From: Opitutus sp. GAS368
Lineage (GTDB): Bacteria > Verrucomicrobiota > Verrucomicrobiia > Opitutales > Opitutaceae
Assembly (NCBI GenBank): GCA_945859965.1
Contig: CAMAPG010000004.1
Span: 1 to 34,954, forward strand
DNA length: 34,954 nucleotides
Reading direction: 5' to 3'
In this document: in pieces, positions 10,662 through 34,668 of the stretch
Position numbering within the stretch: the first letter of the stretch is position 1
Layout of the letters: every line of letters starts with the position of its first letter
Position numbers and translations under genes: made by a program
Notes under the pieces: model-generated
The model's database searches: none
What the model saw: only the letters and a program-made list of their open reading frames with translations
What the model was told of the DNA's origin: nothing

Positions 10662-10753
10662 TCGTTCCAGCGCGTCGCGTTTGCATTTTTCATCGCGTTC
10701 CGCCCAGGCCCAGTCGGCCAGCAGGCGGCCGAGGCGGGCGGGCGGAAACGAAA

Positions 10754-13115: not shown

Positions 13116-13127
13116 ATAGACGATGCC

Positions 13128-13406: not shown

Positions 13407-13448
13407 GGGTCATGGCTTTAGGCATTTCAGCGGAACGATGCAGTTAGA

Positions 13449-13605
13449 AACCACGAATAACACCAATGGACACGAATCCGCCGGGATGGCGGCCCGCCCG
13501 GAATTGCGGCCTGAACGCACACCATCCGATGGGGTGTTTATTCCCTGCCAACAAGTGGCCACCACTCCGGTCTTCATTTGTGTGAATTCGTGTCCATTCG
13601 TGGTT
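13449..13605. repeat. Inverted-repeat intergenic element
   Basis: AACCACGAATaacaccaATGGACACGAAT ... ATTCGTGTCCATTCGTGGTT; the right arm is the reverse complement of the left arm apart from a short insertion. Confidence 0.75.
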
Positions 13606-13637
13606 AAACGGAATGGTTCCGGTTAAGACACTGTTTC

Positions 13638-13673
13638 ACCTTCCTTACGCTCTTCGCGGTCCAAACCCGCCAA
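13638..13673 (-). promoter_or_regulatory. Putative ECF-type promoter upstream of the kinase gene
   Basis: Minus-strand TTGGCGGGTTTGGACCGCGAAGAGCGTAAGGAAGGT; same GGCGGG-N16-CGTA spacing as 10447-10483. Confidence 0.5.
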
Positions 13674-13679
13674 AATTTT

Positions 13680-14243
13680 TCATTTCGCCTTCATATTTTC
13701 GATGCGCTCGAAGAGCCAGGCCTTGGCGCAGCTCCAGTGGCGTTGCACGGAACGCTCGGAAAGATTGAGGAGGGCGGCGATTTCCGATTCGCTGAAACCG
13801 GCGAAGAAACGCAGCTTTACGATCTCCGCCCGCTCGGGCGAAACGGTTTGCAGCTCATCCAACGCGTCGTTCACTTGAAGTAGGACTTCATCCTTGGCCG
13901 GTTCAGGAATCTCAATCTGATCCAGATCAACCCTCTCGACATTGGCCCCGTGGCGGAGGCGGGAACGGCTCCGAGCGCGGTCGATCAGAAGGTGCCGCAT
14001 GGCTTCCGCCGCGGCGGCAAAGAAGTGGCGGCGGTTCTGCCATCGCTCCTTTTCCCCGCCCAAAAGCTTGAGATAGGCCTCGTGGACGAGGGCAGTGGCC
14101 TGCAACGTCTGGCCGGGCGGAAGCAAAGATAATTTGTAAGCGGCCAGCTTGCGCAACTCGTCGTAGATCAGAGGCAGCAATTGCTCAGCGGCCTGAGGTT
14201 TGCCCTGTTCCAATGCGCTCATCAATTGTGTCAGCTCGGGCAT
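13680..14243 (-). CDS. RNA polymerase sigma factor, ECF subfamily (TIGR02999-like)
   Basis: 187 aa; LLPLIYDELRKLAAYKLSLLPPGQTLQATALVHEAYLKLLG, RRHFFAAAAEAMRHLLIDRARSR, KLRFFAGFSESEIAALLNLSERSVQRHWSCAKAWLF. Confidence 0.93.
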   Translation of the reverse strand: MPELTQLMSALEQGKPQAAEQLLPLIYDELRKLAAYKLSLLPPGQTLQATALVHEAYLKLLGGEKERWQNRRHFFAAAAEAMRHLLIDRARSRSRLRHGANVERVDLDQIEIPEPAKDEVLLQVNDALDELQTVSPERAEIVKLRFFAGFSESEIAALLNLSERSVQRHWSCAKAWLFERIENMKAK

Positions 14244-14648: not shown

Positions 14649-15677
14649 TCAGAAGCCCTGAGCTTGCCGTGCCCCCCGCACCTGAGCCTCGAGGTGGATC
14701 AACCCCTCAGCGATGCTGATTCCTGGCCGGTAACCGAGATCTCGCCGGGCTGCATTCATGTTGAACCAGTGCGACGTGCAAAGCTCCTTCACCACGAACC
14801 GAGTAAGGCGGGGCTCGCGCGGGTTGCGGGTCACGCGGTGAAAAGTTTCAAAGCCCCATGCCAGCAGGAGTGCCAGTGGCTTCGGGATGCTGCGCTGCAC
14901 CGTCGGCGCGCCCGCGGCTTGCAGCAACCGGTTGATCATCTCCCAGATCTCGATCGGCTCGTCCTGAGAAATAAAGTAGACCTTTCCGGCAACCGGCGAA
15001 TCGGGGGCCAGTCGATCTGCCGCCAGCAAGTGCGCCTCGGCGGCGTTATCGACGTGGATGGTGTCAATGAGCTTTCGCTGCCGCCCAATGCGGCGCAGTT
15101 GGCCGGCCTGGGAGCGGGCGGCGAGGCGCGGCAGAAGATGGTTGTCGCCGGGGCCCCAGATCAGATGCGGGCGCAAAGCCACCGTGGCGAGTTGGGGACT
15201 ATTGGCGCGAAGGACGTGCTGCTCTGCCAGCGCCTTGGTCCGTGGATAATGTGCGTCAAAGTGGCGGGGATACGGAACCCGTTCATCCACGCCTTCCATG
15301 TCGTGGCCATCGAACACCACGCTGGGCGAACTTGTGTAAACGAGGCGAGCGACCCCGTGGTGCCGACAGGCGACGATGATGTTCTCGGTGCCCGTCACAT
15401 TCGTTCGATGGTAATCCTGGTAGGGTCCCCAGATGCCGGGTTTGGCGGCGACGTGAAAGACCAACTCGCATCCGGCCACCGCTCGGGCGACCGCTTCGGC
15501 GTCGCCGAGGTCCCCTTGGAAATGTTCCACCCCCAACTCGCGCAACGCGGGATGGTCCTGACGCGAAAAGCCGCGTACGATAACACCGCGCGCCACCAGC
15601 CGGCGAACGATCGCCATGCCGAGAAATCCGCCGCTGCCGGTGACCAGGGCTTTCATGGCCGCTGGCGACGGGCCCAT
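14649..15677 (-). CDS. oleD: OleD-like NAD(P)-dependent 2-alkyl-3-oxoalkanoate reductase (SDR/3-beta-HSD-like)
   Basis: 342 aa; MKALVTGSGGFLGMAIVRRLVARG Rossmann motif, YPRTKALAE (YxxxK); last gene of the oleABCD order. Confidence 0.87.
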   Translation of the reverse strand: MGPSPAAMKALVTGSGGFLGMAIVRRLVARGVIVRGFSRQDHPALRELGVEHFQGDLGDAEAVARAVAGCELVFHVAAKPGIWGPYQDYHRTNVTGTENIIVACRHHGVARLVYTSSPSVVFDGHDMEGVDERVPYPRHFDAHYPRTKALAEQHVLRANSPQLATVALRPHLIWGPGDNHLLPRLAARSQAGQLRRIGRQRKLIDTIHVDNAAEAHLLAADRLAPDSPVAGKVYFISQDEPIEIWEMINRLLQAAGAPTVQRSIPKPLALLLAWGFETFHRVTRNPREPRLTRFVVKELCTSHWFNMNAARRDLGYRPGISIAEGLIHLEAQVRGARQAQGF

Positions 15678-17317
15678 ACCGCGAGTTTCTCGCGGAAGAT
15701 CTTCGCGTTATGCCGGATGTCGACCGGGAACGCCGGGTGGAAAAGGAACCGCTTAATGGATTGGGTGTGAGCATGCTTGGCCGCCAATTCCAGCAGTTCT
15801 GCTCTGAGCTGATCGGGCGAGGTGGATCGGGCCGATGGTTCCAACTCGACACAAAGAACCGGCTCCGTGTCCGCCGCACGCGGCACGCCGACCAGCGCCG
15901 AACGAAAGACGGCGGGATGCGTATTAAACACGGCTTCGCAGGGAATCGTGTAGAGGGTCTCCCGCCCCGTGACGACCCGGTGCGACTTCCGCCCGCAAAA
16001 CCAAATCCGCCCCTGTGCGTCCACGTAACCCAGATCCCCCATGCGATGATAGAAACCGTCATTCGCGGGATCGCAAATCTTTGCGAGAGCGGTGGCCGCA
16101 GGCCGATTCAGGTACGTGCGAGTGACGTGCGGGCCCCGAACGGCAATCTCGCCAATTTCTCCGGGCGCGACTTCCAGAGAGTCATTCCAAGCAGCAATGA
16201 CCTCATCACTGATCCGGATCACCTTTACCGTCAACCCCGGCACGGGTTGCCCCACGCAGACGCCGCGACCCAGATCCGTTTGATAGCGGGTTTCACTCAG
16301 CAATACATCGCTACCGATGGACGACACCGGCAGACACTCGGTGGCGCCATAGGGGGTAAACACCTGTGCGCCGGGTGCCAGCATCGCGGCAAACCTCTGA
16401 ATGACCTTCGCCGGCACGGGTGCGCCCGCGGAGATGACCCGACGAAGCGTCGGCAGTTTAACCCCCTGCGTCTCGCCGTAGCGACCGACGCGGTTGATCA
16501 CGGCGGGTGAACCGAACATGTTCGTAACTCCGAAGTTCTCGATGGCTTCGATGATCTTGACGGGATCAACCTCCGCGGGTCGGGTCGGGTCCATGTCCGG
16601 CAGGATCGACGTCATGCCCAGGGCGGGGCCAAACAGGGCGAACAAGGGGAAGGTAGGCAGGTCGATTTCTCCGGGCCGAATGTCATAGAGACGTCGAATC
16701 TGTTCGACCTGCTGCCCAAAAAACTCATGCGTGTAAACGACTCCTTTGGACGGGCCGGTGCTGCCGCTGGTAAAGAGAATGGCGGCCGTCTCGTCTGGTT
16801 CCGGTTTCACGATTGGAAACACGCCGTGTCCGGCGCCCAGCTCGCGGACGTGTCGGGTCGTCGGTCCTCCCAGCCCCACGCGCCGACCCGCCGTAATCTT
16901 GATCGAGATGGACGCTCGCGCCCAACCTAGGACGGCGCGGGCCACATGGGCTTTGGGAATTCCGATGAAAGCTTCCGGCGCAGCCTCCGAAAGCCCCTTG
17001 CCGAGGTTGAGCGCACCTATGCCCGGATCAATCAGCACCGGCACCGCTCCCAGCTTGAAGAGTGCAAAGGTCAGCGCAAAGAAGTCCAGACTCGGTGGCA
17101 CCATCAGTGCCGTGTGCATTCCCCGTCGGAGGCCGAGGTGCTGAAAGCCGTGCGCGAGTTGATCACTGACCTGGTCGAGTTGCCGGAAAGTGTAGTGAGT
17201 GTAGCTCACCCTACCCTGTGCATCACGCCCCTCGGGAAAAACCACCGCGGCTCGCCACGGCTGCTGCTTCGCCATCGCAGGCAGATGCGCGGCGATATTG
17301 ATGGCCGGCTCAGACAC
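15653..17317 (-). CDS. oleC: OleC-like AMP-dependent ligase / beta-lactone synthetase
   Basis: 554 aa; AAILFTSGSTGPSKGVVYTHEFF, MFGSPAVINRV, YGATECLPVSSI, MGDLGYVDAQGRIWFCGRKSHRV. Confidence 0.88.
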   Translation of the reverse strand: MSEPAINIAAHLPAMAKQQPWRAAVVFPEGRDAQGRVSYTHYTFRQLDQVSDQLAHGFQHLGLRRGMHTALMVPPSLDFFALTFALFKLGAVPVLIDPGIGALNLGKGLSEAAPEAFIGIPKAHVARAVLGWARASISIKITAGRRVGLGGPTTRHVRELGAGHGVFPIVKPEPDETAAILFTSGSTGPSKGVVYTHEFFGQQVEQIRRLYDIRPGEIDLPTFPLFALFGPALGMTSILPDMDPTRPAEVDPVKIIEAIENFGVTNMFGSPAVINRVGRYGETQGVKLPTLRRVISAGAPVPAKVIQRFAAMLAPGAQVFTPYGATECLPVSSIGSDVLLSETRYQTDLGRGVCVGQPVPGLTVKVIRISDEVIAAWNDSLEVAPGEIGEIAVRGPHVTRTYLNRPAATALAKICDPANDGFYHRMGDLGYVDAQGRIWFCGRKSHRVVTGRETLYTIPCEAVFNTHPAVFRSALVGVPRAADTEPVLCVELEPSARSTSPDQLRAELLELAAKHAHTQSIKRFLFHPAFPVDIRHNAKIFREKLAVWARRQRP

Positions 17318-18212
17318 GTTGGCCGTCGACGGGGTGACGTTGGAAAAAGTTCTGGATCAGGGAGAGAATCTCGGCGCCGGCATCCTCGAGTACCAAATGT
17401 CCCGCTTGGGGGAATTGATGCACCTCCGCCTCGGGCAGCGTCTTTCGCCAGACCGCCAGAAAATGATGGTCGAAAACGAAGTCGTCGTCGCCCCAGCAGA
17501 CCAGCGTTGGAATCTTGCGAAACCCGGGGAGTTTCGCCTGCACTTCACTCACGCCGGCATAGCTGCGATCGCCCGGCCGCAGCGGGATGTCTTGCACAAA
17601 CCGCAGGTGAGCGAGTCGCCGCTCGGCGGATTCGTGCGGCGAGAGATATCCGTCGCGAACCTGTTCTGACATGGGGTTGCTGCAACCCCAACGAGTAACG
17701 AGGCGACAGAAAAGTCCGGAACGACGGATGAGAAAGTCGTCCAGTTTCGTATGGCGACACATCCACAGCGAGGGCGGCAGCTTCTTGGTCTCCGGGAGGT
17801 GAAACGCCGCCGTATTCAACAGCACCAACCGGGCGATGCGTTCCGGATGCCGAGCGGCGTAGGCCATGCCGATCATCCCACCCCAGTCGTGCAGGATGAG
17901 CGTGAGTGGACCCGCGATCTTGAGGTGGGCAATCAGCGCCTCCAAGTCCTGCACGCGCCGCTCGAGCGTGAACTCATACCGCCGGTCATCGGGCTTGTCC
18001 GACAGCCCGCAGCCCATGTGGTCCGGCACAATGGTCCGGCACTGCGAGCGCAGTCCCAGCACCAGATTGCGATAAAAGAACGACCACGTCGGGTTGCCAT
18101 GCAGCATGATGACGGGATCGCCGCTGCCTTCGTCGAGAAAGTGCAGCGAAAGGCCGTCGAGGTCGAGACGTGAGCCGGCAAAGGGATAAAGGTCTTTTCG
18201 AAAAGTCGCCAT
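17310..18212 (-). CDS. oleB: OleB-like alpha/beta hydrolase (haloalkane dehalogenase-like; beta-lactone decarboxylase)
   Basis: 300 aa; LTLILHDWGGMIGMAYAARHPERIARLVLLNTAAF nucleophile elbow, MLHGNPTWSFFYRNL. Confidence 0.87.
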   Translation of the reverse strand: MATFRKDLYPFAGSRLDLDGLSLHFLDEGSGDPVIMLHGNPTWSFFYRNLVLGLRSQCRTIVPDHMGCGLSDKPDDRRYEFTLERRVQDLEALIAHLKIAGPLTLILHDWGGMIGMAYAARHPERIARLVLLNTAAFHLPETKKLPPSLWMCRHTKLDDFLIRRSGLFCRLVTRWGCSNPMSEQVRDGYLSPHESAERRLAHLRFVQDIPLRPGDRSYAGVSEVQAKLPGFRKIPTLVCWGDDDFVFDHHFLAVWRKTLPEAEVHQFPQAGHLVLEDAGAEILSLIQNFFQRHPVDGQRV

Positions 18213-18218
18213 AACGGA

Positions 18219-19268
18219 TCACCATTCCAGCCCGAGCATGAGACAGGTCAGCCCGCTGCCGATACCCAGGAACGCCAGCCGTTGTGCTGGCTTGAGCACC
18301 CCACGCTCATGGGCAATCGCTGCGGTCACCGGCAGCGCTGCGGTACCCATGTTTCCGAGAAAGCGGTAGGTCGTGTAGTCTTTTTCTTTGGGGACTTGCA
18401 GCGACTTCAGAATTGCATCCTGATGGCCGTGTCCGACCTGGTGGCAAACCACTCGGTCCACGTCTGCGGCCCGCCATCCAAGATGCGCCTGAAAAAGCTC
18501 CCAGGTCCGCTGCCCCAGGTGCACGCCGTTCTTGAGCACGGCCACCGAGTCCGTCGCCATGAACTGTTTCTGCTGAAATTCACCGCTGGGCTGGAGGCCC
18601 CAGCGGCAGAGACGGTGGTGCTCGGGCGCGACTTCGGACACCGCGCCCAACAAACGATGCCCGGTTAATCCGCCAAAGGAACCGTCGGTCAAAAGCACCG
18701 CCACCGCGCCAGAACCGCCGGTAAACGTCGCGATGGCTTGCGAGAATTCGGCCATGTCTCCGCCCTCGATCAGGCGTTGCAGGGCAATTTCGTTGATCTC
18801 TCGAGCCGTCTCGCAGGACACCACCAAGCCGGCGCGGATTTGCCCCAGCTCAATCCGGTTCGCGACCTCCAGCATGCCGTTGAGTACGCCCAGACACGCA
18901 TTGCTCAGATCGTAGACAAACGCCCCGCCCCGGACGCCGAGTCCATCGGCCACCGCGCAAGCCGTCGCCGGTTCGAAGTTCTCTCGACAGACACCGCCGT
19001 AGATTACCATACCAATATCGGCCGGAGTCACCGTTGTCTTGCGCAGGCTCTTGCGGGCCGCGGCCAAGGCGCCCGCAGAGAGTTGAAAGCCAGGCTGCCA
19101 CCAACGGCGCTCGGCAATGCCAGTCCAGGCTTCGAGTTGGCCCGCTTGCAGATTAAGCCGCGCATAGACGGGTGCCAACCGATCCTCCAATTCCGCGGAG
19201 GTCACGACCACTGGACCCAGTTCGTAGCCGAGTGACGTCAGGAAAACCCTTTGGTACTTCGGCATCAT
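18219..19268 (-). CDS. oleA: OleA-like thiolase-fold acyl condensing enzyme (KAS III-like)
   Basis: 349 aa; active-site region VYDLSNACLGVLNGMLEVANRIELGQIRAGLVVSCETAREIN, C-terminal HERGVLKPAQRLAFLGIGSGLTCLMLGLEW. Confidence 0.88.
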   Translation of the reverse strand: MMPKYQRVFLTSLGYELGPVVVTSAELEDRLAPVYARLNLQAGQLEAWTGIAERRWWQPGFQLSAGALAAARKSLRKTTVTPADIGMVIYGGVCRENFEPATACAVADGLGVRGGAFVYDLSNACLGVLNGMLEVANRIELGQIRAGLVVSCETAREINEIALQRLIEGGDMAEFSQAIATFTGGSGAVAVLLTDGSFGGLTGHRLLGAVSEVAPEHHRLCRWGLQPSGEFQQKQFMATDSVAVLKNGVHLGQRTWELFQAHLGWRAADVDRVVCHQVGHGHQDAILKSLQVPKEKDYTTYRFLGNMGTAALPVTAAIAHERGVLKPAQRLAFLGIGSGLTCLMLGLEW

Positions 19269-22200
19269 GTTTTTCCCTGCTCGTCCCGTTGCGCTCGCAC
19301 GGTAAAGTGTTTCATCCCATAGATCACCCGGCCGTCCACCGAAAGAAGGCCATCCGCGGTGAGCATGCGTGCGGACTCATCCACCGCTGTGACGAGGGCT
19401 TCGATGGTCACCAAGGTATCGTTCGGAATGATCTGCCCCCGGTAGACCCACTCATGGGGTTCCCCAATGGCGACCGCCTCCCAGCGGGTACCGTCCGTGT
19501 GACCCCAGCGCTCGATGGCGAGGAACTTCAGCAATTGGAGAAACGACTCGAGGCCGAGCGAGCCAGGCACCACCGGATCTTGGTAGAAATGCGCTTTGAA
19601 GAACCACTCTTCCGCCACGACCCGCTTGGTGGCGCGGATGAATCCTAAACCGCTCGGCCCACCGTTGGCACAGTATATCTCGATGGAATCTACCATTCGC
19701 AAGGGTGCGCCCGCGAACGGCGGCTGGGCGGGATAAGGCAGCGACGTACTGGCAGCCAGTTCGGCGGGGCTGGGTTGGTACCGCTTCGCGTCGCGAATTC
19801 CCTCCTGCCTAGCCAGCGCCGCCGCGGGGAAGAAGCCGAAGTAGGTGTTGCCCTGATAGAGCCGACCCGACTTACCCCGCACTTCCAGGTCGAACCATTG
19901 GATGATCATCCCGGCCGAACTCGAAACGCGGGTCAGTTTCACTCGCGTCACCAGAGTTCCGGCGGTCGGAGTCACCGGTGCGAGTTGGGTTCCGGTGCCT
20001 CCCAGATTGCGGAAGGACAAGTCGGTTTCGCTGGTGAGAGCCGAACCGACGTAGGCGGCCAGCCAACCACACGGCTGCAGGGCGATTTCCAGCACCACGG
20101 CGAAGGGCATGTCGTTTTGGTGGTTTGCGGCGAAATACCAAGCTTCCGGCGGGACAGCGTATTCCGCCACCGCCACGCCGCCGGGCACCATCTTGAACGG
20201 CTCGCCGGTCACCTCCGTGATATGGTCGAGGAATTGATACGGCGGACCCGGCAACCGTGCGATGCGCCGCTCTTCGTCGAAGACTCGGTAGGGTGCGCCG
20301 AACGCCTCGGAGGGCTTGCCAACGGCAAAGGACAGGATGCGATCGGAGTCGTAAAGAACGCCTTGGGCTGGGTGCGATCGAGTCGCAGCCCACGTTGCTT
20401 GAAGCAGGTCGCGCGTCACACCCGCATAGCGCAGACTCATGTTTCCGATTTCAACAATTGCCTTGCCGTCCGCAAACATCAGCGCGTCCGCAATCACGTA
20501 CGGCTCCGGTTGGTAGCCAATTTCCTTGATCGAGATTTCGTAGGTCACGACGGCTGTGGTGTCGAGCACCTGGCCGCGGCACTTCAACTGACTCACGACG
20601 CCGGGCACCGGTTCCAAAACGGCCAGGTCCTGTTCCACGACCCAGCCAAGGCGCAGCAGCAGCACGCGAAGGGTGTGCAGGCAGCACTCGAACATCAGCG
20701 TCCCAGGCATCACACGGTCATCCACGAAATGGCACGTCAGGAACCAATCGTCGGGATGAATATCCGCTTCGCCGCGCACCCAGCCCAAACCAAAGCGCCC
20801 GCCCGTCGGATCCAAGCGGGGGATGCGATGGACCAGCTTCATTTGGCCCGCAGGCAGCGTGATGGGGTGTTGGAGATTCAGTCCGGAAAACTCGGGCCCA
20901 AAGCACGTTGCTAGATCTCCCACTCGCAGCGCATCCAACTGCTCCGCGGAGTAAGACTCAACCCCGACGGCGACCAACTCCTCCCAGTCAGCGGGTCGCT
21001 TACCCGGCCTCGGCTCGAGGTCCATCGCCGTCCGCACGATGCCGCGGCCACCGCTTAATTCGGCAGCGGAGAAGAAGCCGGCGCAACCTTCGGTCATGGT
21101 TAGAAATGGCCGGCCGGCCACGGTTGCCTCAAAATTGAAGCGGAACAGCCACGTGCTGCCCTGGCGGAAGAAGCCGTCGATGCGGATGTCGTAGCGAATC
21201 ACCGCGCCCGGCCCCGGCAGCCCGCAATGAAAACAGACCTTGGCATCGAGCAAGCGGTAAACGGCCAGTCCCTTTGTCTCGAAATCAATACCGAGAAAGC
21301 CGGAGAGAAAGAGATCGGCCTGACCCGCCTCGACTGCGATGCAGGTGGGGATGTGCCCGCCGTCCAGATACCACGCGCCGGAGAGGATGTCGTGCTCTGT
21401 CACCACCCGACCGTGCGTCATGGAGCGCGCTTCGCCCTCAATTTCCAGAATCCGATCCACCAGCATCAGCGGCTCATCCGGCAGGCGCACCCGAGTCGGG
21501 TAATCGTCCACGGCACTGAACTGCGCGCCCAGCACCTGGGCCACCGCACCGCGTGCAAATTCCAGGCATGCCGCGCGATCGAGCGTTGGTGTGCGGCGAT
21601 CCAAGCTGTGACTGCCCTCGTCCGGCAGCTCCATTCTCGCCGGCTCCGATGGCACGGACTGATGTTCGCGGCTGCGAGAAGCGAGCTCGTTGCCGGCGCC
21701 GTGTCGCGCCGTTGCCAGGTGGCGATTCGTTCCAACGGCGGTCTCCTCCCCCGCCAGTGCGGAGATCAATCCCAGCTGGGAACGGACGGTTTGGGCCAGC
21801 GTCTCGCCCACTCCCTGGGTGAAATTGAGGTAGGCCTGATGAGCGTTGATCGCCGCCGCTTGTGAATCCGCCATGCCCTGGAAGAACTCCGTCTCGAAGG
21901 GATCGCCTGCCTCGGCTGCCGTTGTCGGGGTCCCGTCGGAAAACTCCGGAGCCGTCGCCTCAACGCCAGGGCCTTCCTCCATCCATGCGTCCAGGCGGGG
22001 CGCGAGGGTGCGTCCGGCAGCAGCCGGGGCGGGAACCCTTCCTGACGCATCCGTCGCAAACAGCGGGCTGACGACGCGTATCCGCACGCAGCGCGTTTCG
22101 ACTGGGGCGGACAAATTCGTCACGGCCCGTGCCTCGCCGCCGGACAGCTTCTTCAAATCCACGGCGATACCCTCGGCAACCAACTGGCCCAGCACCCCAA

Positions 22201-25200: not shown

Positions 25201-26518
25201 GTTGACGGAAGTTGGCGGTGGCCGGCAGGATACCGTGCTTCAACGCAAGCAGCACTTTGATCAGAGACGCACTGCCTGCTGCCGTCAGCAAATGACCGAT
25301 GTTGGCCTTCACCGCCCCGAGGACGCACTGGCCGGGTTGCCAGGATTCCCCCCGCCAAAGTTTTGACAAGCTTTCGAACTCCACCGCGTCTCCAACGGGC
25401 GTGCCGGTGGCGTGACACTCGATCAGGTCGACCGAGCCCGGCGACCAACCGGCTTGTTGGTACGCCTGCTTCAATGCGCGCAACTGCCCTTCGGAACTGG
25501 GCGAAAGCAGGTTGCCATCGAGATCGTTGGAAAGGCCGATTCCGCGGATTATTGCGTGAATGGAATCGCCGTCGCGTCGCGCATCGGCCAGCCGTTTCAG
25601 CACGAGCACGCCGGCGCCTTCGCCCACGATCAAGCCGCTGCTCGCCGCTTCAAACGGTGTGCATCGCCCGGTGTGCGCCAGCGCGCGGAGTTGGCAGAAA
25701 CCCATCTGCGTGTAGAGCGAATCTGGGCGCGAAAGCCCACCCGCCAGCATCGCGTCGGCGCGGCCGGCGCGCAATTCATCGCACGCCAGCTTGAGTGCGT
25801 AGAGGGACGAGGCGCAAGCGGCGTCGAGGGTGCACGTGCCGCCGCCGAGACCCAACGCTTGCGCGAGCACGCCGGCGGGCAGGCCTGAGACATAGCGGCG
25901 GGGATCGAAATCCGAACGCCGAGATCGGAAGGCCGCAAGGGCTTGAGCCGAATCCGCCGGCCCGGCTGAGGAAAGGTCCTCCCTAACTCGGTGCGAAGAG
26001 TTTAATCCAGCGCGTCCCCTCGCCGGGTTCGGATTTCCTTCAGATCCCGGAGATAGGATCTGGGCTTCCCCCATTACCTCCTCGCACAATTCGGACACCG
26101 CTTCCGTCGGCAACGCGATGTTCCCCAGCACCACGCCAACGCGGCGTCGATCCACCGGGTCCGTGCGCGCACTCGCCCAGGCATTTCGCCCCGCTTCGAG
26201 GAGCAGATGAATCGAAGCATCCAGCGCAGAGAGCAGGTCGCCCGGCAGATCCAACCCGGTGGGATCGAGTTGGAAACCCTGGATGAAGCAGCCGCGATCC
26301 GTATAAACGCGATCCGGCGTGCCCGGCGTAGCGTCCTGAATGGAATTGGGATCGAGAATCCAGCGCCCGGCGGGCACCGGGCAACTGGTGTCCTCGCCGT
26401 ACTCGATCCGATGCCAGAATTCGTCCAGCGAGCGCGCGCCAGGAAAAACGCCGCCGTAGCCGACAATGGCGATCGGTTCCGCACCGTCTCCCGCAGCGGG
26501 TTCGGACTTACGCTCCAT
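19265..26518 (-). CDS. pfaC: PfaC/Pfa3-like PUFA synthase subunit: KS - chain-length-factor-like KS - AT - tandem FabA-like DH (four hot-dog units)
   Basis: ~2.4k aa; KS DAACASSLYALKLA / ECHATGT; second, degenerate KS; AT GIAFVFPGAGNTFPEMGRELALRW and MVGYSLGEATG; FabA-like WYLDGGHIPTCIAVEAGQADLFLSGFLGID, DDRVMPGTLMFECCLH, FAANHQNDMPFAVVLEIALQPCGWLAAY, QDPVVPGSLGLESFLQLLKF. Track start is 26545; the ATG at 26518 (MERKSEP) seems more likely. Confidence 0.88.
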   Translation of the reverse strand: MERKSEPAAGDGAEPIAIVGYGGVFPGARSLDEFWHRIEYGEDTSCPVPAGRWILDPNSIQDATPGTPDRVYTDRGCFIQGFQLDPTGLDLPGDLLSALDASIHLLLEAGRNAWASARTDPVDRRRVGVVLGNIALPTEAVSELCEEVMGEAQILSPGSEGNPNPARGRAGLNSSHRVREDLSSAGPADSAQALAAFRSRRSDFDPRRYVSGLPAGVLAQALGLGGGTCTLDAACASSLYALKLACDELRAGRADAMLAGGLSRPDSLYTQMGFCQLRALAHTGRCTPFEAASSGLIVGEGAGVLVLKRLADARRDGDSIHAIIRGIGLSNDLDGNLLSPSSEGQLRALKQAYQQAGWSPGSVDLIECHATGTPVGDAVEFESLSKLWRGESWQPGQCVLGAVKANIGHLLTAAGSASLIKVLLALKHGILPATANFRQPAEKIPLAGSPFRILQESQPWPRRAVATPRRAAINGFGFGGINAHVLIEEWLGDVNRERNGVGTRRASACVPGAGSGIASEPASNSLPEMPAAEVGGSEFPARHRKPLNGGECSPEPTTAVPVAIVGLAAHVGSWPTLQAFQERVFGGGSEVLPARDGRPFPGFFLTDLALPVNRYRIPPKELAELLPQQALMLEVARAALADAQTPKPAPARAGVCIGLGLDLRTTDFHFRWATLAAGRESQAPALTADRTLGALAGINASRIAKEFHFGGQSFTVCTEDCSGTKALEIAVRALQTGELDMALAGAVDVAGDPRTLLGTNAVRPFSLAGVARPFDTHGDGVLPGEGAVALVLKRLDDAQRDGDRIYAIVRGIGSASGGGIGGAFEAPVAPALDVTHPSRIGAPRTAEEALDRAYAEAGVDPASVGYLETNSTARPEDDLREIQVLDTFFGSSRRKFSCRLGSAMADVGHTGAATGLVAVVKASLALYQEVLPPLRGLLQPLAGLATSPTLLARPFPQPWVRDRVNGPRRAGVSTASVDGNFMHVVLEACEGQTSERAQTEREQPVETRRDALFVAAAAAPAGLLKQIEALRSLATSVGRETIVALARRWWGANAAGSAGETPTAPWVVALVTQDVAQLLRLLESARDCVQRSASPDTSTLPRQDRDRLFFTPPDQRIKGGIAFVFPGAGNTFPEMGRELALRWPEILRAQDRENEFLASQMCADRFWNVASPANIGTDHRAVICGQVALGTMVSDLAVSFGLKPDAMVGYSLGEATGLFALRAWAARDEMLRRVTRSTLFSEDLTGKPEQLRRVWRVPVGQPSVEWLAGLVDRPATEVRAAIASRERIYILIVNTPRECVIGGDATEVRALVAKLSCHWWPLDGVSTVHCELLRPFEEAYRELHRFPTAAPASVRFFSGGWGREYIPDRETAAAAIVAQASDCVDFPRVVRAAYDAGMRVFLEMGPGNSCSRMIGQILHGRPHVARSLCASAQEPILAILGVLGQLVAEGIAVDLKKLSGGEARAVTNLSAPVETRCVRIRVVSPLFATDASGRVPAPAAAGRTLAPRLDAWMEEGPGVEATAPEFSDGTPTTAAEAGDPFETEFFQGMADSQAAAINAHQAYLNFTQGVGETLAQTVRSQLGLISALAGEETAVGTNRHLATARHGAGNELASRSREHQSVPSEPARMELPDEGSHSLDRRTPTLDRAACLEFARGAVAQVLGAQFSAVDDYPTRVRLPDEPLMLVDRILEIEGEARSMTHGRVVTEHDILSGAWYLDGGHIPTCIAVEAGQADLFLSGFLGIDFETKGLAVYRLLDAKVCFHCGLPGPGAVIRYDIRIDGFFRQGSTWLFRFNFEATVAGRPFLTMTEGCAGFFSAAELSGGRGIVRTAMDLEPRPGKRPADWEELVAVGVESYSAEQLDALRVGDLATCFGPEFSGLNLQHPITLPAGQMKLVHRIPRLDPTGGRFGLGWVRGEADIHPDDWFLTCHFVDDRVMPGTLMFECCLHTLRVLLLRLGWVVEQDLAVLEPVPGVVSQLKCRGQVLDTTAVVTYEISIKEIGYQPEPYVIADALMFADGKAIVEIGNMSLRYAGVTRDLLQATWAATRSHPAQGVLYDSDRILSFAVGKPSEAFGAPYRVFDEERRIARLPGPPYQFLDHITEVTGEPFKMVPGGVAVAEYAVPPEAWYFAANHQNDMPFAVVLEIALQPCGWLAAYVGSALTSETDLSFRNLGGTGTQLAPVTPTAGTLVTRVKLTRVSSSAGMIIQWFDLEVRGKSGRLYQGNTYFGFFPAAALARQEGIRDAKRYQPSPAELAASTSLPYPAQPPFAGAPLRMVDSIEIYCANGGPSGLGFIRATKRVVAEEWFFKAHFYQDPVVPGSLGLESFLQLLKFLAIERWGHTDGTRWEAVAIGEPHEWVYRGQIIPNDTLVTIEALVTAVDESARMLTADGLLSVDGRVIYGMKHFTVRAQRDEQGKT

Positions 26519-29500
26519 GCGGCAAATGATTCTGTCGGAAGGCATCCCGCAGCCCCGGGTCGATCACGCATTCGTACCCCTCGGCCACGGCCAACAGCTG
26601 ACCCTGCCGGTCGAAGAAATGCAGGTCGGCCGTAACCACGGGGGGCGCGGCGTTGGTAATCTGGATCACCACACGACTGCCGCTCTTGGGGAAAGTCGGG
26701 GCGTACTGGCGAAAGCGCCGGATAGCGCACGGCAGGGAGCCGGCCTCGTGATGTTCCCAACTCCAGAGAATCATCATCTGGAAGCTGCTATCGAGCGCCA
26801 GCGGGTCCGAGAGCCAGTCGGTGCGCAGCGGGTTCTGAATCCAGTGCTTCGGGGCGGGTGCGCTCTTCACCCGTGCGGCCATCTCCGTGGCGGAGCAGAC
26901 TTCCAACTTTTCAATGCCCTGGAAATGCCGCCCATGAAAAAGATGCCCGTCACCATAAATCGTGCGGGGCCTGGTGCCGTTGGAGGAAACGTGTGGTGAC
27001 GGGGCGGTCACCGGCGCGGCGGGCAGGACTTCCGCGAGCAGGACTTCCGCGCGAGCGTGCAGCACTTGGCGCGGCCCGCTGCGGCTGACCAGCTGCACGG
27101 GCACGTGGAGCAAGCCCTCGCGCATCTGCCCCGGTTCGGCGAGGATACTGACGTGGGCTGACCCGCCCGGCTCCAGCACCACACCTTTGAGAACCTTGAA
27201 CATCTCGAAGCCGTGAAAGGCCATCCCGGGATTGCCATGGACCGCACCGTGGCCGAGCCATTCGATCATGAGGGCCGCCGGTAGCACCGCGCGACCGTTG
27301 AGCACGTGCGACACAAGGCACGGCAGTGTCGCGACACTGATTTCGCGCTCGAAGGCAACGCTCAGCGTCGAGGGTTCGGTCACGGTCGTGACACAGGTAT
27401 CGTGACGGTCTTGTTCGCACGGGCTGGAAGCCGGGGCCACGATGCTGCCGCCGCTCCCTTCGTTTAAGGATAAGGGTGCCAGCGCCAGCACTTCCACGCA
27501 GCCGTCGTTGCCGGAGGAAATTTCCCGGACAAAAAACTCCGCGCCCGCGCCGGGCTCGATCAAGCCGACGCCCTCACTTTCAAAAATCTTCCGCAGCCCG
27601 GCCGAAACCATACCGCCGTTCCATGGACCCCAATTGATCGAGACGACGCGGCACTCCGGACGCTGTCGAGAGACGCTTTGGGCGATTTTGTTCAGCACCT
27701 CATTGGCGGCGGCGTAATCAACCTGGCCCACGCGACCAAATCGGCCGGTGTAGGAGGAGAACAGCGCCAGCAACTTCAGATCATCACCTCGCAGCGCGTC
27801 CAGCAGGTTGCGCAAGCCCGACACCTTGGTGCTGTAAACCAGATCAAACTGCTCCGCCGTTTTGTCCTCGATCTTTCGGTCCGCCAGCACGCCAGCACCG
27901 TGGATCAAGCCGCGGATCGGTCCGAGTTGCTCGCGAATTTCGGCGCAGGTTCGCGCAATCTCGCCCGCGTGACGCACGTCGACCGAGCGGTAGAGCGCCG
28001 AGGCACCGGTGGCCCGGATCTGCCGGAGGCACTCGCGAATTTCACGCTGCGCCAACACCTCGCGAAGCTGCTCGGCGATCTTCTTCGGCGAACCGTTGCC
28101 GTTGGCGCGGGCCAGCAGGACGCGCCGGATATCTTGTTCGTCCGCCAGACTGGCCAGCCAATCCGGCTCCGGTGCCTGCTCCAGCAGCGGGCTCCGGCCC
28201 AGCAGCACGAGTTGCAACCGCTTTCCGCGCGCCAGTTGCAGCGCCGCCGTCGCCGTAATGCCACGCGCGCCACCGGTCACGATCACCACGTCGCCCTCTT
28301 GAAGGATCGGCGTGGCACCGGGAACGGCGGGTGCCGCTGTTTCCAGGAACAAGCCAAACCGCGATGCGCCGGAAAGCCCGACTTCGACCGGCCCGAGTCG
28401 GAACATCTCCCCAATCAACGGACCGGCCTCGTTGGCGCTGATGCCCAGTTCCGGGTTGAGATCAATCGCCTTGCAATGCACTTCCGGCCACTCGTGAGCC
28501 GCGGTTTTCACCAGACCGGCGAGGCCGCCGCTGATGGGGTTGCCGCTGCCGTTCAGTGCGCCAAATCCGAACGCGCCGTCCAGTCGTGAAGCCGTCACCA
28601 GGATGCCACCCGCTTGCCGCAGCGAGGGACCGGCCAACTGGATCAGACGAAAGGCTTCCTTCAGCGCCATGTCGTCGCCGCGAATGGCCGGCCAGAGAAT
28701 CACCAGACCAGCGGGCGTTTCGCCGCGCGGATCACGAATCAATTCTGCCGCGGTCCCCCGGCGCACGGAGTAGCCTCGCGCCGCAAGCTGGGCCTCGACG
28801 GCGGGTGCCAGATCAGAACCATCCTCGGTGACCCAGATCCGCGCGCCGCGCGGCAGGTTCACCGTGGGCTCCGTTGCGGAGTCGGCGATCCGGACGGATT
28901 TCACAACCTGGCGGTGGAGCGGGGCGTGATCCGGGATCAGCGATGAGTCGGGCTTTGTCGGGAGCGCGACGGATGCCGCCGTCAGGAACTCCACAATTTG
29001 CTGGAGCGTTTGCAGCGTGCCGAGGTGCTCGGGCTTGATCTCCGGCGCCTCGGGCAAGAGCGTGCGCAGCGCGGCCATGATCTCGACGCGCTTGATCGAA
29101 TCAATGCCGAGATCGCTGTCCAAACCCATGTCGAGAGTGAGCATCTCGACGGGGTAACCGGTTTTCTCCGCGACGACTTGCAGCAAGGCGGCGCGGACGC
29201 GGGGGAAATCCACGGCGCCATCCGTGCTGGGGCCTACGAGGGATGGCACCGGGCCCACCGGCTGAGCTGGGGTCGGATGGCGGGCGGCGTCCCCGGACGC
29301 GGCTTGCCCGTGACCACTCAATAGAAAGTCGACCACTTGCTGGAGCGTTTGCAGCGTGCCCAGATGCTCGGGCTTGATCTCCGGCGCGGCCGGCAGGCGC
29401 CCGCGCAGCGCGGCCATGATTTCGACGCGTTTGATCGAATCAATGCCGAGGTCGCTGTCCAAGCCCATGTCGAGAGTCAGCATCTCCGCCGGGTAGCCGG

Positions 29501-32500
29501 TCTTCTCGGCCACCACGTCGAGCACGATGGGGGCAACGTCCGGTGAGACGGCGGGCGGTGCGGGGACTTGCGGCGCGGCGACGTCGGGGGGAATGGGCGA
29601 AGGCACGCTCGCGGCCGCTCGGCTTTGGGGGGCTGGTGGCAGCTCGGAGCGTCGCCCCCCGGTAGCGCTGGGCACCCGTGGGGTCTGCACCGGACTGGAC
29701 GGCCCGTGCAGTAGGTCGCGCCGCTGGGCAAGAAGTCCTTCCAAAGTTCGGCGAGCCGCGTCCTGACCTTCGAGGAACTGACGGTGCAACTGGGCGGTCT
29801 GCTCCTGCATTGTTTGTAGCGAGAGCATGCCTTGCTGCGCGATTTGGAGCGCGTTCGCCAAGTCAGCGGGCAATGAGGGTTGCGCAACTGGAGTGGGGGT
29901 GGAAGCCTGCAACTGCGGCGTCATGGTGTCACGGCCAAGGATCGCATTCTCCCCGGGTTTTTCCGAAGAGTGGCGCCTGGTCAAGACGCTGCGGTGGGGA
30001 TCCGGAATCGCTGGAGACGGTTGGGGCGCCGAGGCACCTGCGGGCGCGCGTGGCGGGCGCGGCGCTCGTGGGGTGCGATGGTTGGCACCGGTCAGCGCGA
30101 CGGTAATACCGGTCTTGCCATTGGCCGCGGCGGGCGGCGTGGCCGCAGACTCTTCCCAGCGTGACAGCTCGACTCCGTGCCCCAGCGCGGCCAGACGGCA
30201 CAGCGCGACGGCCAGGTCGAATGTTCCGGAGCGCGAGCCTTTGGAGGCATCCAGCGCGACGGCCTCGACGTCGCGGCCTTGCGCGATGGCGTGCACGAGG
30301 TCGCTGAGAACATGCCCTGGCCCCATCTCGACGAACGTCGTCACACCATCGGCGAGCATCGTCTCGATCTGCGCCATGAAATCCACGGGTTGCACGATCT
30401 GGCTGGCGAGAAGCTCGCGAGCTTGCCGGGCACCGCTAGGGTAAGCTTTGGCCGTGCTGTTGGCATAGACGGGGATGTGTCCGCGACTGAACTTGATGTC
30501 CTCCAAGGCCGCAGCAAACGGCGCTCGGGCGTCGGCGACCAACGCGCTATGAAACGCGGCTGACACCGGCAGCACTTTGGCGCGCAGGGAACGCTTTGTC
30601 AGTTCGCCGGCCGCGCGCTCGATTTGTGCATTCGAGCCGGCCAGCACGAACTGGCTGGGCGAATTGCGGTTCGCGATGACCAGCGAGCAATCATTTTCGC
30701 CGACGAAACTGTTGACGGTCGCCTCGGACGCCTGCACGGCGAGCATCGCGCCGCGATCGTGGTGGCCGCTGCGATTGGCCATGAGCCGACCGCGGACGTT
30801 GGAGAGACGGTGCAACGCTTCTGGATCCAGCCGGCCAGCGCCACAAAGCGCCAGCAGTTCACCGTAGCTGTGACCGGCGGCGGCCTCGGCCGTGACCCCG
30901 AAATAAGCCAACACATTCAGTGCGCCCAGGCCCGCCGCACCCAGCGCCGGTTGTGCGATCTCGGTCGACTTCAAGGCGGCTTCCTGCTCGCGCCGCGCCT
31001 CGTCGCTGAACGCCGGGTGCGGATAAATGAAATCGCTCAAGCGTTGCCTGCCCAGCTCCGGGCGCTCGCCGCCGAAGACCTCATCCGCCGCCGCGAGCGC
31101 TTCGATCATCCCAGGAAACTGGCAAGCCAGATCGCGAAACATGCCGACATATTGCGAACCCTGGCCGGGGAACAGTGCCCCCAATTTGCCGCGCCGCTGG
31201 CCGGATCCGAACGCGATGCCGGTAGGCAACACCCAGTGCGACTTCTCGGGGTGCTGCTCAAGCATCTTTAGCGCCGCGTCACGGAGCGCCGGGAGTGGGC
31301 TTTCCGGCGTCACCGGCAGGAGCAGACGGAACTCGGCGGCACGCCTGAAGTCCTGCCTCGATTGGGTGGCGCGGGTTCGCACTTCGGCCCATGCCGCGGC
31401 AGGCAGCCCGGCAACTTGGATCTGCAATTCGGCGCGGCTGTCGGCGCTGAGTGCAAGGATTTCGACATCGCCGTCCCAGCCGGGCTTCTCCATCCGGATA
31501 CCATGCTCTTCGAGCACACAATGAAAATTCGTGCCGCCGAAACCAAACGCGCTCACGCCAGCCCGACGCGGATGCGCGGCGCGGGGCAGCCAGGGACGCT
31601 TCTGCGTGTTGATATAAAACGGGGAACAGCCCGGCGCCGCCTCGCTAATTGGCTGGCTGACTTTGATCGTGGGCGGCAAAACCTTCTGCTGCAATGCGAG
31701 CGCGGCCTTGATCAGTCCCGCCACGCCGGCGGCGGCCTTCGTGTGGCCGATCTGTGACTTCACCGAGCCGAGCGCTGCCCAACTGCCTTCCGAGCGGGCG
31801 GCGCGGAAAACTTTCGTCAACGACTCGAGTTCTGTGGCGTCACCGACCTTGGTGCCGGTGCCGTGCGCTTCGACGAGTTCGATGCTTTCGGGGGTAATGC
31901 CGGCATCGGCGTAGGCGCGGCGCAGGGCTTCCATTTGCCCATCGGCCTGGGGGGCATAAATCGCGTTGCCACGCCCGTCGCTGGAGCTGCCGAGGCCCTT
32001 GATCACCGCGTAAATCCGGTCCCCGTCGCGCTCCGCATCCGACAGCCGCTTGAGGACCAACATGCCGAGACCCTCGCCGAGGATGGTACCGTCGCAGTCG
32101 CGATCGAAAGGCTTGGCATCGCCCGCGGGCGAGAGCGCCGGGGTCTTGCTGAAGCACACATACATGAAAATGTCGTTGAAGGTGTCAATCCCGCCCGTGA
32201 TCACCATGTCCGAACGGCCGGAGGAGAGTTCCAACGCGGCTAGATGCAGCGCGGCCATGGAGCTGGCGCAGGCGGCGTCCACCACGCAGTTAGTCCCCCC
32301 CAGATCCAGGCGGTTGGCGATGCGCCCCGCCGCCACGTTGCCAAGCAATCCCGGGAAGGAGTTTTCCTGCCACCCGACGTAGGAGTCGGCGATTCGCTGC
32401 ACAACATCCTCGGCAACGGGTTCCGCCACGCCGGCTTCTTTCAAGGCGCGACGCCAGATCGGATGCCCGAGCCGGGCACCGAGGGGAATGACGAGCTCCA

Positions 32501-32876
32501 AAGCGCCGGTCACGCCGAGGATGACGCTGGTGCGCTCTTTGGCGAAGGGCTTGTTGGCGTAGCCCGCATCCGCGAGCGCTTGTTTGGCGGCGACCAGACC
32601 AAGAAGCTGAGTGGTGTCGGTGGCCTCGAGATCCTTGGGCGCGATGCCGAATTCCATCGGGTTAAAGGCGATGGGGGAAAGAAAACCGCCGCGCTGGGCG
32701 TAGGTCCGATCGGGTGCCTTGGGGTCGGCGTTGAAGTAGTCCGCCGCGCTCCAGTGCGACGCGGGAATGGGCGTGATGGCGTCCACTCCATGCTTGATGT
32801 TCCGCCAGTAGGACTGGAGGTCATCCGCTTTCGGGAACAGACAACTGATGCCGATTATAGCCACTGATTCACTCAT
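26508..32876 (-). CDS. pfaA: PfaA/Pfa2-like PUFA synthase subunit: KS - MAT - 2x ACP - KR - DH
   Basis: 2122 aa; VAIIGISCLFPKADDLQSYW, DAACASSMAALHLA, EAHGTGTKVGD; MAT LFPGQGSQYVGMFRDLA and GHSYGE; two LGLDSDLGIDSIKRVEIMAAL ACPs; KR VIVTGGARGITATAALQLA; DH SHVLNGRAVLPAALMIEWLGHGA with LDSSFQ. Confidence 0.92.
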   Translation of the reverse strand: MSESVAIIGISCLFPKADDLQSYWRNIKHGVDAITPIPASHWSAADYFNADPKAPDRTYAQRGGFLSPIAFNPMEFGIAPKDLEATDTTQLLGLVAAKQALADAGYANKPFAKERTSVILGVTGALELVIPLGARLGHPIWRRALKEAGVAEPVAEDVVQRIADSYVGWQENSFPGLLGNVAAGRIANRLDLGGTNCVVDAACASSMAALHLAALELSSGRSDMVITGGIDTFNDIFMYVCFSKTPALSPAGDAKPFDRDCDGTILGEGLGMLVLKRLSDAERDGDRIYAVIKGLGSSSDGRGNAIYAPQADGQMEALRRAYADAGITPESIELVEAHGTGTKVGDATELESLTKVFRAARSEGSWAALGSVKSQIGHTKAAAGVAGLIKAALALQQKVLPPTIKVSQPISEAAPGCSPFYINTQKRPWLPRAAHPRRAGVSAFGFGGTNFHCVLEEHGIRMEKPGWDGDVEILALSADSRAELQIQVAGLPAAAWAEVRTRATQSRQDFRRAAEFRLLLPVTPESPLPALRDAALKMLEQHPEKSHWVLPTGIAFGSGQRRGKLGALFPGQGSQYVGMFRDLACQFPGMIEALAAADEVFGGERPELGRQRLSDFIYPHPAFSDEARREQEAALKSTEIAQPALGAAGLGALNVLAYFGVTAEAAAGHSYGELLALCGAGRLDPEALHRLSNVRGRLMANRSGHHDRGAMLAVQASEATVNSFVGENDCSLVIANRNSPSQFVLAGSNAQIERAAGELTKRSLRAKVLPVSAAFHSALVADARAPFAAALEDIKFSRGHIPVYANSTAKAYPSGARQARELLASQIVQPVDFMAQIETMLADGVTTFVEMGPGHVLSDLVHAIAQGRDVEAVALDASKGSRSGTFDLAVALCRLAALGHGVELSRWEESAATPPAAANGKTGITVALTGANHRTPRAPRPPRAPAGASAPQPSPAIPDPHRSVLTRRHSSEKPGENAILGRDTMTPQLQASTPTPVAQPSLPADLANALQIAQQGMLSLQTMQEQTAQLHRQFLEGQDAARRTLEGLLAQRRDLLHGPSSPVQTPRVPSATGGRRSELPPAPQSRAAASVPSPIPPDVAAPQVPAPPAVSPDVAPIVLDVVAEKTGYPAEMLTLDMGLDSDLGIDSIKRVEIMAALRGRLPAAPEIKPEHLGTLQTLQQVVDFLLSGHGQAASGDAARHPTPAQPVGPVPSLVGPSTDGAVDFPRVRAALLQVVAEKTGYPVEMLTLDMGLDSDLGIDSIKRVEIMAALRTLLPEAPEIKPEHLGTLQTLQQIVEFLTAASVALPTKPDSSLIPDHAPLHRQVVKSVRIADSATEPTVNLPRGARIWVTEDGSDLAPAVEAQLAARGYSVRRGTAAELIRDPRGETPAGLVILWPAIRGDDMALKEAFRLIQLAGPSLRQAGGILVTASRLDGAFGFGALNGSGNPISGGLAGLVKTAAHEWPEVHCKAIDLNPELGISANEAGPLIGEMFRLGPVEVGLSGASRFGLFLETAAPAVPGATPILQEGDVVIVTGGARGITATAALQLARGKRLQLVLLGRSPLLEQAPEPDWLASLADEQDIRRVLLARANGNGSPKKIAEQLREVLAQREIRECLRQIRATGASALYRSVDVRHAGEIARTCAEIREQLGPIRGLIHGAGVLADRKIEDKTAEQFDLVYSTKVSGLRNLLDALRGDDLKLLALFSSYTGRFGRVGQVDYAAANEVLNKIAQSVSRQRPECRVVSINWGPWNGGMVSAGLRKIFESEGVGLIEPGAGAEFFVREISSGNDGCVEVLALAPLSLNEGSGGSIVAPASSPCEQDRHDTCVTTVTEPSTLSVAFEREISVATLPCLVSHVLNGRAVLPAALMIEWLGHGAVHGNPGMAFHGFEMFKVLKGVVLEPGGSAHVSILAEPGQMREGLLHVPVQLVSRSGPRQVLHARAEVLLAEVLPAAPVTAPSPHVSSNGTRPRTIYGDGHLFHGRHFQGIEKLEVCSATEMAARVKSAPAPKHWIQNPLRTDWLSDPLALDSSFQMMILWSWEHHEAGSLPCAIRRFRQYAPTFPKSGSRVVIQITNAAPPVVTADLHFFDRQGQLLAVAEGYECVIDPGLRDAFRQNHLPHGA
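29001..29525 (-). repeat. Tandem duplication encoding the two ACP domains (339-nt period)
   Basis: ctggagcgtttgcagcgtgcc...cttgatctccggcgc...gaatcaatgccgag.tcgctgtcc starts at 29001 and again at 29340. Confidence 0.9.
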
Positions 32877-34668
32877 CGTTTTGCAATAGTTTCTTCATAT
32901 CCTCCACGGATACGAGCGGACCCTGCGCCAGACTCCCCGGCCAGGGAACTCCCTGCGTGCGCAATGCCTGCGCCCGAAGCTGCACAGCCGCCCCGTGGAG
33001 GAGGCTCAGGGCGACCTGCGCAGCGTGCCGGTTTTCGGGCGGTTCGAGACAGGTGCCGCGCGCCCATTCGTTAAACGCGCCCATCGCCGGACCGCACCAG
33101 ACTTGGTAATCCAGGACGCGCGTGGGATCGCCCGCGTTTGCCCAGCGCGAACTCAACCCGAGATAGCTCCGAAATACTAGCGCCATCTTGTGCTTTGGAT
33201 CGCGCTCGGCTCGTTCGACTTCGCGGGGATCGCGCTCCTGAAAGTAGGCCCGAGTGCTTTGCCAGGCGGCCTCCAGCGACGCGCGAAAGAATTGTTTCTC
33301 CAGCACGGTGCGGTCGGATGCCGCCAGGGTTTCCAGAGACGGGTGAGTGCGATACAATTCGTAGAGTTTTGCAGCGCGCATCGCAAACATGGTTCCGCGC
33401 TTGAGCACCTGGACTTTGACCCCCATCTCGAACATGTCGGCGGCCGGTGCCATCGCCGTGTCTGCCTGCTCGGCTTGCGCCAGCAGGCGCCGGACGGTGT
33501 CGCAGGAACCGGATTCCACGCAGGCCTGATTGATCGAACCCGTCACCACGTAGGCTGCGCCCATCGTAAACGCCGCGGCCAGCGCCGCCGGTGTGGACAG
33601 CCCGCCGGCGGCACCGACTCGGAGCGTTTGCTCGAACGCAAACTTCGCCTGGAGCCGGTTTCGCAACGCCAGCAGCGTCGGCAGCAGCGTCACGAGCGGG
33701 CGATTGTCGGTGTGTCCGGCGGAATCGGCTTCGGCCGTGATATCCTGGGCCATCGGGATCTGCGCCGCGAGTTGCGCCTGTTCCGCGGTGATTGCCCGGG
33801 AGTGCACCAGTTCGTTGAGGAACTCCGCCGGCGGCGGTGACGCGAATTGCGTGGCCACCTCCAGGCGCGAAACTTTGGCCACGATCCGATTGGGCGTGAC
33901 CACCCGCCCGGCGGCGTCCCGGGCGATGCCCGTTACCCGGTAGCGCACGACCGGCAACGTGAGACGTAAATATGCGGCTGCCTCAACCAACCGGATACCG
34001 CGGCGCAGGTACAGGTCCACGGTCGCGGCTTCGCGGTCGGGTTCGTTGGGACTATGGATGAGATTAAATCCGAACGGAGAGCCCGCCAAGCTCGTCTTCA
34101 GCCGATCAATTGCGTTCCCAATCCGCTCCAACTCGAGTCCCGCCGAGCCAAAGAACCCGAGCATCCCGGCCCGGGCCATGGCCTCCACCAGCTCGACCGA
34201 CGCAATGCCGTTGGCCATGGCCCCGGCAACGTAGGCAAAACGCAACCCGTGATCGCGGCGGAAATCGGGATCCCCCAGGTTCTCCAGCGGCAATGCGGGG
34301 AGACATGCCGCAATCCGAGAGTCGACGGGCGCCGTGTCGTTTCCGTTGGCGACGCCCATGCCGCCGGGTACCAACGCAAACTGGGCTCCGCGTTCCAGCA
34401 CCAGCCAGGGCTCGCCCAACCGGCCCAAGGCACCCAACAAAGACAAGAGAACAGCCTCGGTCGGAGCGCCTTCGCGGCTCCACCGAATCTTTGCGGTGAG
34501 TTCGGACTGGCTGTCGGCTTTTAGAATCAAGGACCTGCAATATCGAGATAAGCGAACCGCAAGTAATGGGTTTCTCCCTTGCTTGTCCATGCCAATCGCC
34601 ATCGTCCGCCGACACGGGTGTTGGACAAAAATCTGATTCCGTTGAAAAACAGGCCGTTTTCTTGGCAT
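32869..34668 (-). CDS. pfaD: PfaD/Pfa1-like enoyl reductase (nitronate monooxygenase-fold) of PUFA synthase
   Basis: 599 aa; LRFAYVAGAMANGIASVELVEAMARAGMLGFFGSAGL, AAGGLSTPAALAAAFTMGAAYVVTGSINQACVESG, MAPAADMFEMGVKVQVLKRGTMFAMRAAKLYELY; start may be internal (34602 or 34590). Confidence 0.92.
   Translation of the reverse strand: MPRKRPVFQRNQIFVQHPCRRTMAIGMDKQGRNPLLAVRLSRYCRSLILKADSQSELTAKIRWSREGAPTEAVLLSLLGALGRLGEPWLVLERGAQFALVPGGMGVANGNDTAPVDSRIAACLPALPLENLGDPDFRRDHGLRFAYVAGAMANGIASVELVEAMARAGMLGFFGSAGLELERIGNAIDRLKTSLAGSPFGFNLIHSPNEPDREAATVDLYLRRGIRLVEAAAYLRLTLPVVRYRVTGIARDAAGRVVTPNRIVAKVSRLEVATQFASPPPAEFLNELVHSRAITAEQAQLAAQIPMAQDITAEADSAGHTDNRPLVTLLPTLLALRNRLQAKFAFEQTLRVGAAGGLSTPAALAAAFTMGAAYVVTGSINQACVESGSCDTVRRLLAQAEQADTAMAPAADMFEMGVKVQVLKRGTMFAMRAAKLYELYRTHPSLETLAASDRTVLEKQFFRASLEAAWQSTRAYFQERDPREVERAERDPKHKMALVFRSYLGLSSRWANAGDPTRVLDYQVWCGPAMGAFNEWARGTCLEPPENRHAAQVALSLLHGAAVQLRAQALRTQGVPWPGSLAQGPLVSVEDMKKLLQNDE

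Follow-up and report, generated by a model that had tools for sequence, protein, structure and literature searches.

The pfaBC-oleA stop/start overlap of a pfa-ole type operon in Opitutus sp. GAS368 and its counterparts in related operons

Background

It has been observed that pfa and ole genes co-occur in 44 of 80 pfa-bearing genomes, where they are 'often linked', and that in Type I clusters, in which pfaB and pfaC are fused, the synthases may feed olefin synthesis (Shulse & Allen 2011, PMC3098273). In Shewanella and Photobacterium, pfaABCDE and oleABCD together make up the hentriacontanonaene pathway, in which Pfa chains pass to OleA and OleBCD finish the product (PMC6463001). Allemann et al. 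(2019) found that OleA condenses Pfa-derived acyl chains to a 31:8 ketone and that an inactive OleA still lowers EPA, and proposed a contact, probably direct, between OleA and the ACP domains of PfaA (PMC6463001).

For adjacent genes, −4 and −1 nt are the commonest distances everywhere in a survey of 1,695 species, and −4 nt lies within the range of −8 to +10 nt tied to termination-reinitiation, in which pairs are enriched for partners in complexes (PMC10666635). The 4-nt ATGA overlap, described for gene pairs with termination-reinitiation, is the commonest overlap class in 49 phyla (Huber et al. 2019, PMC6728339; 2023, PMC10666635). In Escherichia coli and Haloferax reporters, coupling is almost lost when the spacing is about 20 nt (PMC10666635).

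We analysed a 34,954 nt stretch of contig CAMAPG010000004.1 of Opitutus sp. GAS368 (the window). The first-pass annotation had reported an ATGA overlap between a pfaC-like gene and oleA, taken to join two pathways normally regarded as distinct and, by translational coupling, to fix the stoichiometry between the megasynthase and the condensing enzyme. The separateness is out of step with the literature, in which the linkage was published in 2011 (PMC3098273) and the hand-over from Pfa to OleA in 2019 (PMC6463001).

Gene content of the operon

Seven genes form a compact run on the minus strand in the order pfaD-pfaA-pfaBC-oleA-oleB-oleC-oleD (Table 1). In PfaA, the ACP motif LGIDS occurs twice (residues 1143 and 1256). 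In PfaBC, domain matches comprise two ketoacyl-synthase stretches (KS and KS-like), a PfaB-like AT and FabA-type DH; the KS cysteine lies in DAACAS at residue 241, the AT serine motif GYSLG at 1218, and CHF (1938) and AHF (near 2318) show that both DH histidines are present. On alignment to the Xanthomonas OleA structures, the catalytic Glu, Cys, His and Asn of OleA are conserved, with NACLG, HQVGHGH, GNMG and the FEPAT Glu falling on Xanthomonas NACLA, HQVSRPH, GNIG and LEPST. We take the roles of these residues (catalytic Cys, His and Asn; cross-dimer Glu) to be those of Xanthomonas OleA. The genes oleB, oleC and oleD adjoin oleA, and oleC and oleD score below the equivalog cut-offs for Xanthomonas and Shewanella (oleC against OlefBLtnSynXan, 694 bits with a cut-off of 900).

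Table 1. Features of the operon and of the pfaBC-oleA junction in window coordinates
Feature	Description	Position	Strand	Evidence
pfaD	trans-acting enoyl reductase of PUFA-type synthases, first in operon	32869..34668	−	TIGR02814 641 bits, cut-off 449
pfaA	KS-AT-ACP(x2)-KR-DH-like	26508..32876	−	TIGR02813 1490 bits, cut-off 1010; Pfam domains
pfaBC	fusion, KS-CLF-AT-DH-DH, 2426 aa	19265..26545	−	Pfam/NCBIfam domains
AGGGA	weak Shine-Dalgarno-like run within pfaBC, 5 nt before oleA ATG	19274..19278	−	direct reading
ATGA	stop/start overlap of pfaBC and oleA	19265..19268	−	direct reading
ATGATG	tandem start of oleA with TGA inside	19263..19268	−	direct reading
oleA	thiolase-fold condensing enzyme, 349 aa	18219..19268	−	PRK09258 (covers OleA) 461.9 bits, cut-off 285
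oleB	alpha/beta hydrolase, haloalkane-dehalogenase-like	17310..18212	−	PF00561 and dehalogenase-like NCBIfam matches
oleC	beta-lactone synthetase, AMP-binding	15653..17317	−	PRK09274 764.8 bits
oleD	2-alkyl-3-oxoalkanoate reductase	14649..15677	−	NF042422 416.8 bits, best match, under 580 cut-off

The operon thus matches the known pfa-ole type (polyunsaturated hydrocarbon), with chemistry and product predicted from its genes. The Pfa synthase would build a polyunsaturated acyl chain on the PfaA ACPs, OleA would take two such chains and condense them head to head, and OleB, OleC and OleD would convert the OleA product to a long polyene hydrocarbon.

A close likeness is to the Shulse-Allen clusters of Geobacter, Desulfuromonas and Gemmata, which share with the window a pfaBC fusion and a synthase co-occurring or linked with oleABCD, and which likewise occur in bacteria that are not known producers of EPA or DHA. 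This likeness is by the fusion, the Type I trait found here from the KS-CLF-AT-DH-DH domain positions; the window differs in that pfaD comes first, the seven genes follow one another as a single overlapping series and PfaA has two ACPs. In Shewanella and Photobacterium, by comparison, pfaB is a gene distinct from pfaC and the ole genes have an operon of their own (PMC6463001), whereas in the window pfaBC is fused and oleA follows it directly. In Photobacterium pfaT lies between pfa and ole (PMC6463001); the window has neither pfaE nor pfaT. Profiles for pfaE-type phosphopantetheinyl transferases also gave no match in the 84 % complete genome, although among 14 control genomes PF01648 likewise failed in four and PF22624 in 12.

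Geometry of the pfaBC-oleA junction

The minus strand reads ...GAGCAGGGAAAAAC-ATGATG-CCGAAG... across the junction, or in a second rendering of the context AGGGAAAAAC-ATGATG-CCGAAG. The TGA of pfaBC occupies 19267-19265 and the first ATG of oleA 19268-19266, giving a 4-nt overlap. Both the overlap and the gene identities stand as first annotated, with ORFs at 26545-19265 and 19268-18219 and agreeing profile matches. With the second ATG as start the overlap would be 1 nt (TGATG) rather than −4. Upstream, AGGGA is a putative ribosome-binding run for oleA. RNA structure at the junction did not exceed that of shuffled sequences, either for the window (z = −0.07) or for its nearest relative, L033 (z = 0.74), and a consensus scan gave no promoter between pfaBC and oleA.

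This junction is one of six in the operon, all of them tight at −25 to +6 nt with likely starts chosen: pfaD/pfaA at −8, pfaA/pfaBC at −11 or more, oleA/oleB at +6, oleB/oleC at −8 and oleC/oleD at −4 or −25. Neither this tight spacing elsewhere nor the doubled ATGATG had been recorded in the first-pass annotation.

To place the overlap in context, gene distances were counted over about 430 kb of the same genome (20 contig stretches and the window). An overlap of −4 nt was found in 19 of 218 co-directional pairs (about 9 %) and in 19 of the 56 pairs spaced by 10 nt or less, counts that are low in this class, as the crude gene caller undercounts −4 pairs. The JetB/JetC and JetC/JetD pairs of the window also overlap by 4 nt and were both missed by it.

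The junction in related operons

One scan of the GTDB genome collection yielded 45 OleA relatives (L076 and L077 being distant), and in 40 of these a pfaC homologue lies next upstream of oleA on the same strand, giving 41 operons with the window. Stop-to-start distances in this set range from −4 to +1675 nt: −4 in 13 operons, −1 in three, 1 to 10 in five, 11 to 28 in five, 52 to 202 in 12, and 695, 782 and 1675 in one each. The gap exceeds 20 nt in 16 of the 41. For L061, a spurious match gave an apparent distance of −220 nt, which proved to be −4 on inspection by eye.

Within the 19-member OleA clade of the window the distances are −4, −4, 2, 4, 6, 13, 16, 20, 20, 28, 108, 145, 155, 175, 195, 202, 695, 782 and 1675 nt, and the two cases of −4 are the window and L033, which is 93 % identical. 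Six of the gaps of 108 to 202 nt contain repeat-like or palindromic sequence by eye (L035, L036, L038, L044, L046 and L075), and the gap in L034 holds a SnoaL-like gene and a small ORF. In L041 (2868-3566) a MazE-like antitoxin, identified by profile match, and a PIN toxin lie between pfaC and oleA; L040 (2074-3752) has the same PIN toxin there, preceded by antitoxin sequence. Both are Nitrosomonadales MAGs, and in them oleA starts immediately downstream of the toxin gene.

Mapped onto the OleA tree, the −4 state requires at least eight changes, compared with a mean of 11.2 and a minimum of 7 for shuffled labels. For comparison, the oleC/oleD overlap is kept in 29 of 33 operons. Aligning the junction in homologous operons had been proposed as a check on the coupling claim, with long gaps in relatives named beforehand as evidence against it; such gaps are present and −4 is not conserved. 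The order pfaC-oleA is conserved in the sequences compared but the junction itself is not. Overlaps of −4 or −1 nt nevertheless recur in 16 of the 41 operons, including several lineages outside the clade of the window, and some selection for tight pfaC-oleA spacing is conceivable on that count.

Origin of the overlap and alternative explanations

In the clade of the window, PfaBC tails extend about 4 to 11 residues past a conserved K(N/D/H)F-type motif and share no conserved sequence; in the window the last nine residues, AQRDEQGKT, lie beyond the conserved end. The oleA start ATGATGCC is present in eight relatives that have no overlap. Every tandem ATG contains a TGA in the +1 frame, so a pfaBC reading frame whose own stop was lost close to oleA would be caught there. 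The pfaBC tail may thus have drifted beyond its ancestral stop until caught by the TGA within the ATGATG of oleA. This TGA is probably the default catch for a drifting pfaC end, which would explain the overlap without selection; the direction of change, a stop gained downstream, is the parsimonious one in an unrooted clade. We have high confidence that the seven genes form a presumably co-transcribed pfa-ole operon in which the ATGA is an ordinary product of compaction, and not a stoichiometric device selected across the family. The overlap is real yet of the commonest bacterial junction type, and we regard it as close to ordinary because it is common only to the nearest relative and joins pathways already known to cooperate.

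Ribosomes ending pfaBC may still re-initiate on oleA in this genome, and local coupling may be mechanically possible, with the right distance and the weak AGGGA run before the start. A stronger version, that oleA translation depends on completion of pfaBC so that a selected overlap sets the OleA:synthase ratio, appears unlikely. The −4 nt distance would suit it, being inside the termination-reinitiation range (PMC10666635), as would the recurrence of short overlaps noted above and the reports of an apparent binding of OleA to Pfa ACP domains and of an about tenfold drop in EPA even with dead OleA, by which dose could matter (PMC6463001). However, this is the default distance class in the genome and is found in just 2 of the 19 clade members, relatives carry inserts of 100 to 1675 nt that include the toxin-antitoxin pair and the SnoaL-like gene, and the proposed ACP partner of OleA is PfaA, not PfaBC. 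An effect of OleA dose is plausible, but the reported contact is with PfaA. A fixed synthase:OleA ratio, as first proposed, is not supported with a junction that varies from −4 to 1675 nt in one OleA clade. Compared with described ATGA termination-reinitiation pairs, the overlap in the window is identical in class but not conserved in relatives. The overlaps recurring in unrelated lineages, at −4 or −1 in the 16 operons and with −4 gained or lost eight times or more on the tree, might also be read as coupled translation helping to load OleA onto the synthase ACPs, such that the OleA:ACP ratio sets the acyl share passing to hydrocarbon; we consider this rather improbable. It is very improbable that the true start of oleA is the second ATG (19265) or lies further downstream, making the −4 overlap a matter of annotation choice. 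The tandem ATGATG would allow it, much of the homology begins at residue 4 (KY), and several relatives begin MKY, MRY or MIF and have no second Met, but MMP, with both Met codons, is kept in 10 rows of the 11-member OleA subclade of the window. As the MMPKY start is conserved and the second ATG would only shift the distance from −4 to −1, a short overlap remains with either codon and the biology is little changed; a downstream start, raised beforehand as a possible objection, is not decisive.

Distribution of the cassette

The 41 pfaC-oleA operons span about nine phyla. By record titles, several of which look unreliable (e.g. 'Akkermansia muciniphila' and 'Klebsiella pneumoniae'), the relatives belong to Verrucomicrobiota, beta- and gammaproteobacteria, Planctomycetota, Acidobacteriota, Desulfobacterales, Myxococcota, Elusimicrobiota and Sumerlaeota. 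The distance matrix of OleA correlates strongly with that of PfaC (Spearman 0.86, a value reached by 0 of 500 Mantel permutations), indicating that the genes travel together.

Of 388 genomes sampled from the phylum, only 4 had a strong match to the OleA of the window (56 % identity or more); one of these is its own genome, and the other three are at 56–58 %. The genome encodes a second OleA (C200:1818-2852, 41 % identical) with an OleB-like neighbour and so carries two ole systems, and in the tree this copy groups with the OleA found in nearly all relatives of its order. The few strong matches within the phylum, together with the second OleA being the usual copy of the order, suggest that the operon is a patchily distributed cassette that has probably moved horizontally. 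No plasmid-borne copies of the window OleA were found at E ≤ 1e-60.

Two gammaproteobacterial pfa-oleA operons (L060:5222-7152 and L053:10001-21203) have no oleBCD in the next 10 kb, and a polyunsaturated ketone may be their end product. The oleA of L060 overlaps a gene for a phosphopantetheinyl transferase. The OleA proteins of the gammaproteobacterial and planctomycete clade (L051-L060, L071 and L074) carry an insert of about 50 residues at residues about 228-234, which is absent from the OleA of the window.

Neighbouring loci

The window also encodes a complete Wadjet type II-like defence system, JetA2-JetB2-JetC2-JetD2 (451-8841, minus strand), in which two junctions are −4 overlaps. Directly after oleD in L033 come JetA and JetB (93 % identical), and pfa-ole and Wadjet are syntenic in both genomes. 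A block at 9042-14243 in the window, encoding an ECF sigma factor, a kinase, a TPR protein and an unknown protein, is absent from L033. At the contig end upstream of pfaD (34790-34954) there is a sub-threshold Acido-Lenti-1 match (21.7 bits, gathering threshold 37), followed by GTGCGCC...GTGAAAGTCCCC, where the contig ends; this we take to resemble the 5′ end of a group II intron.

Significance

The combination of pfa and oleABCD is a co-inherited cassette over many phyla in which pfaC almost always adjoins oleA, with the pfaC-oleA translational junction free to drift or be interrupted. As it stands, the significance of the overlap is small, being a standard junction in a known type of operon. 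If coupling were true, the junction could be used to test how OleA dose splits acyl chains between fatty acid and hydrocarbon.
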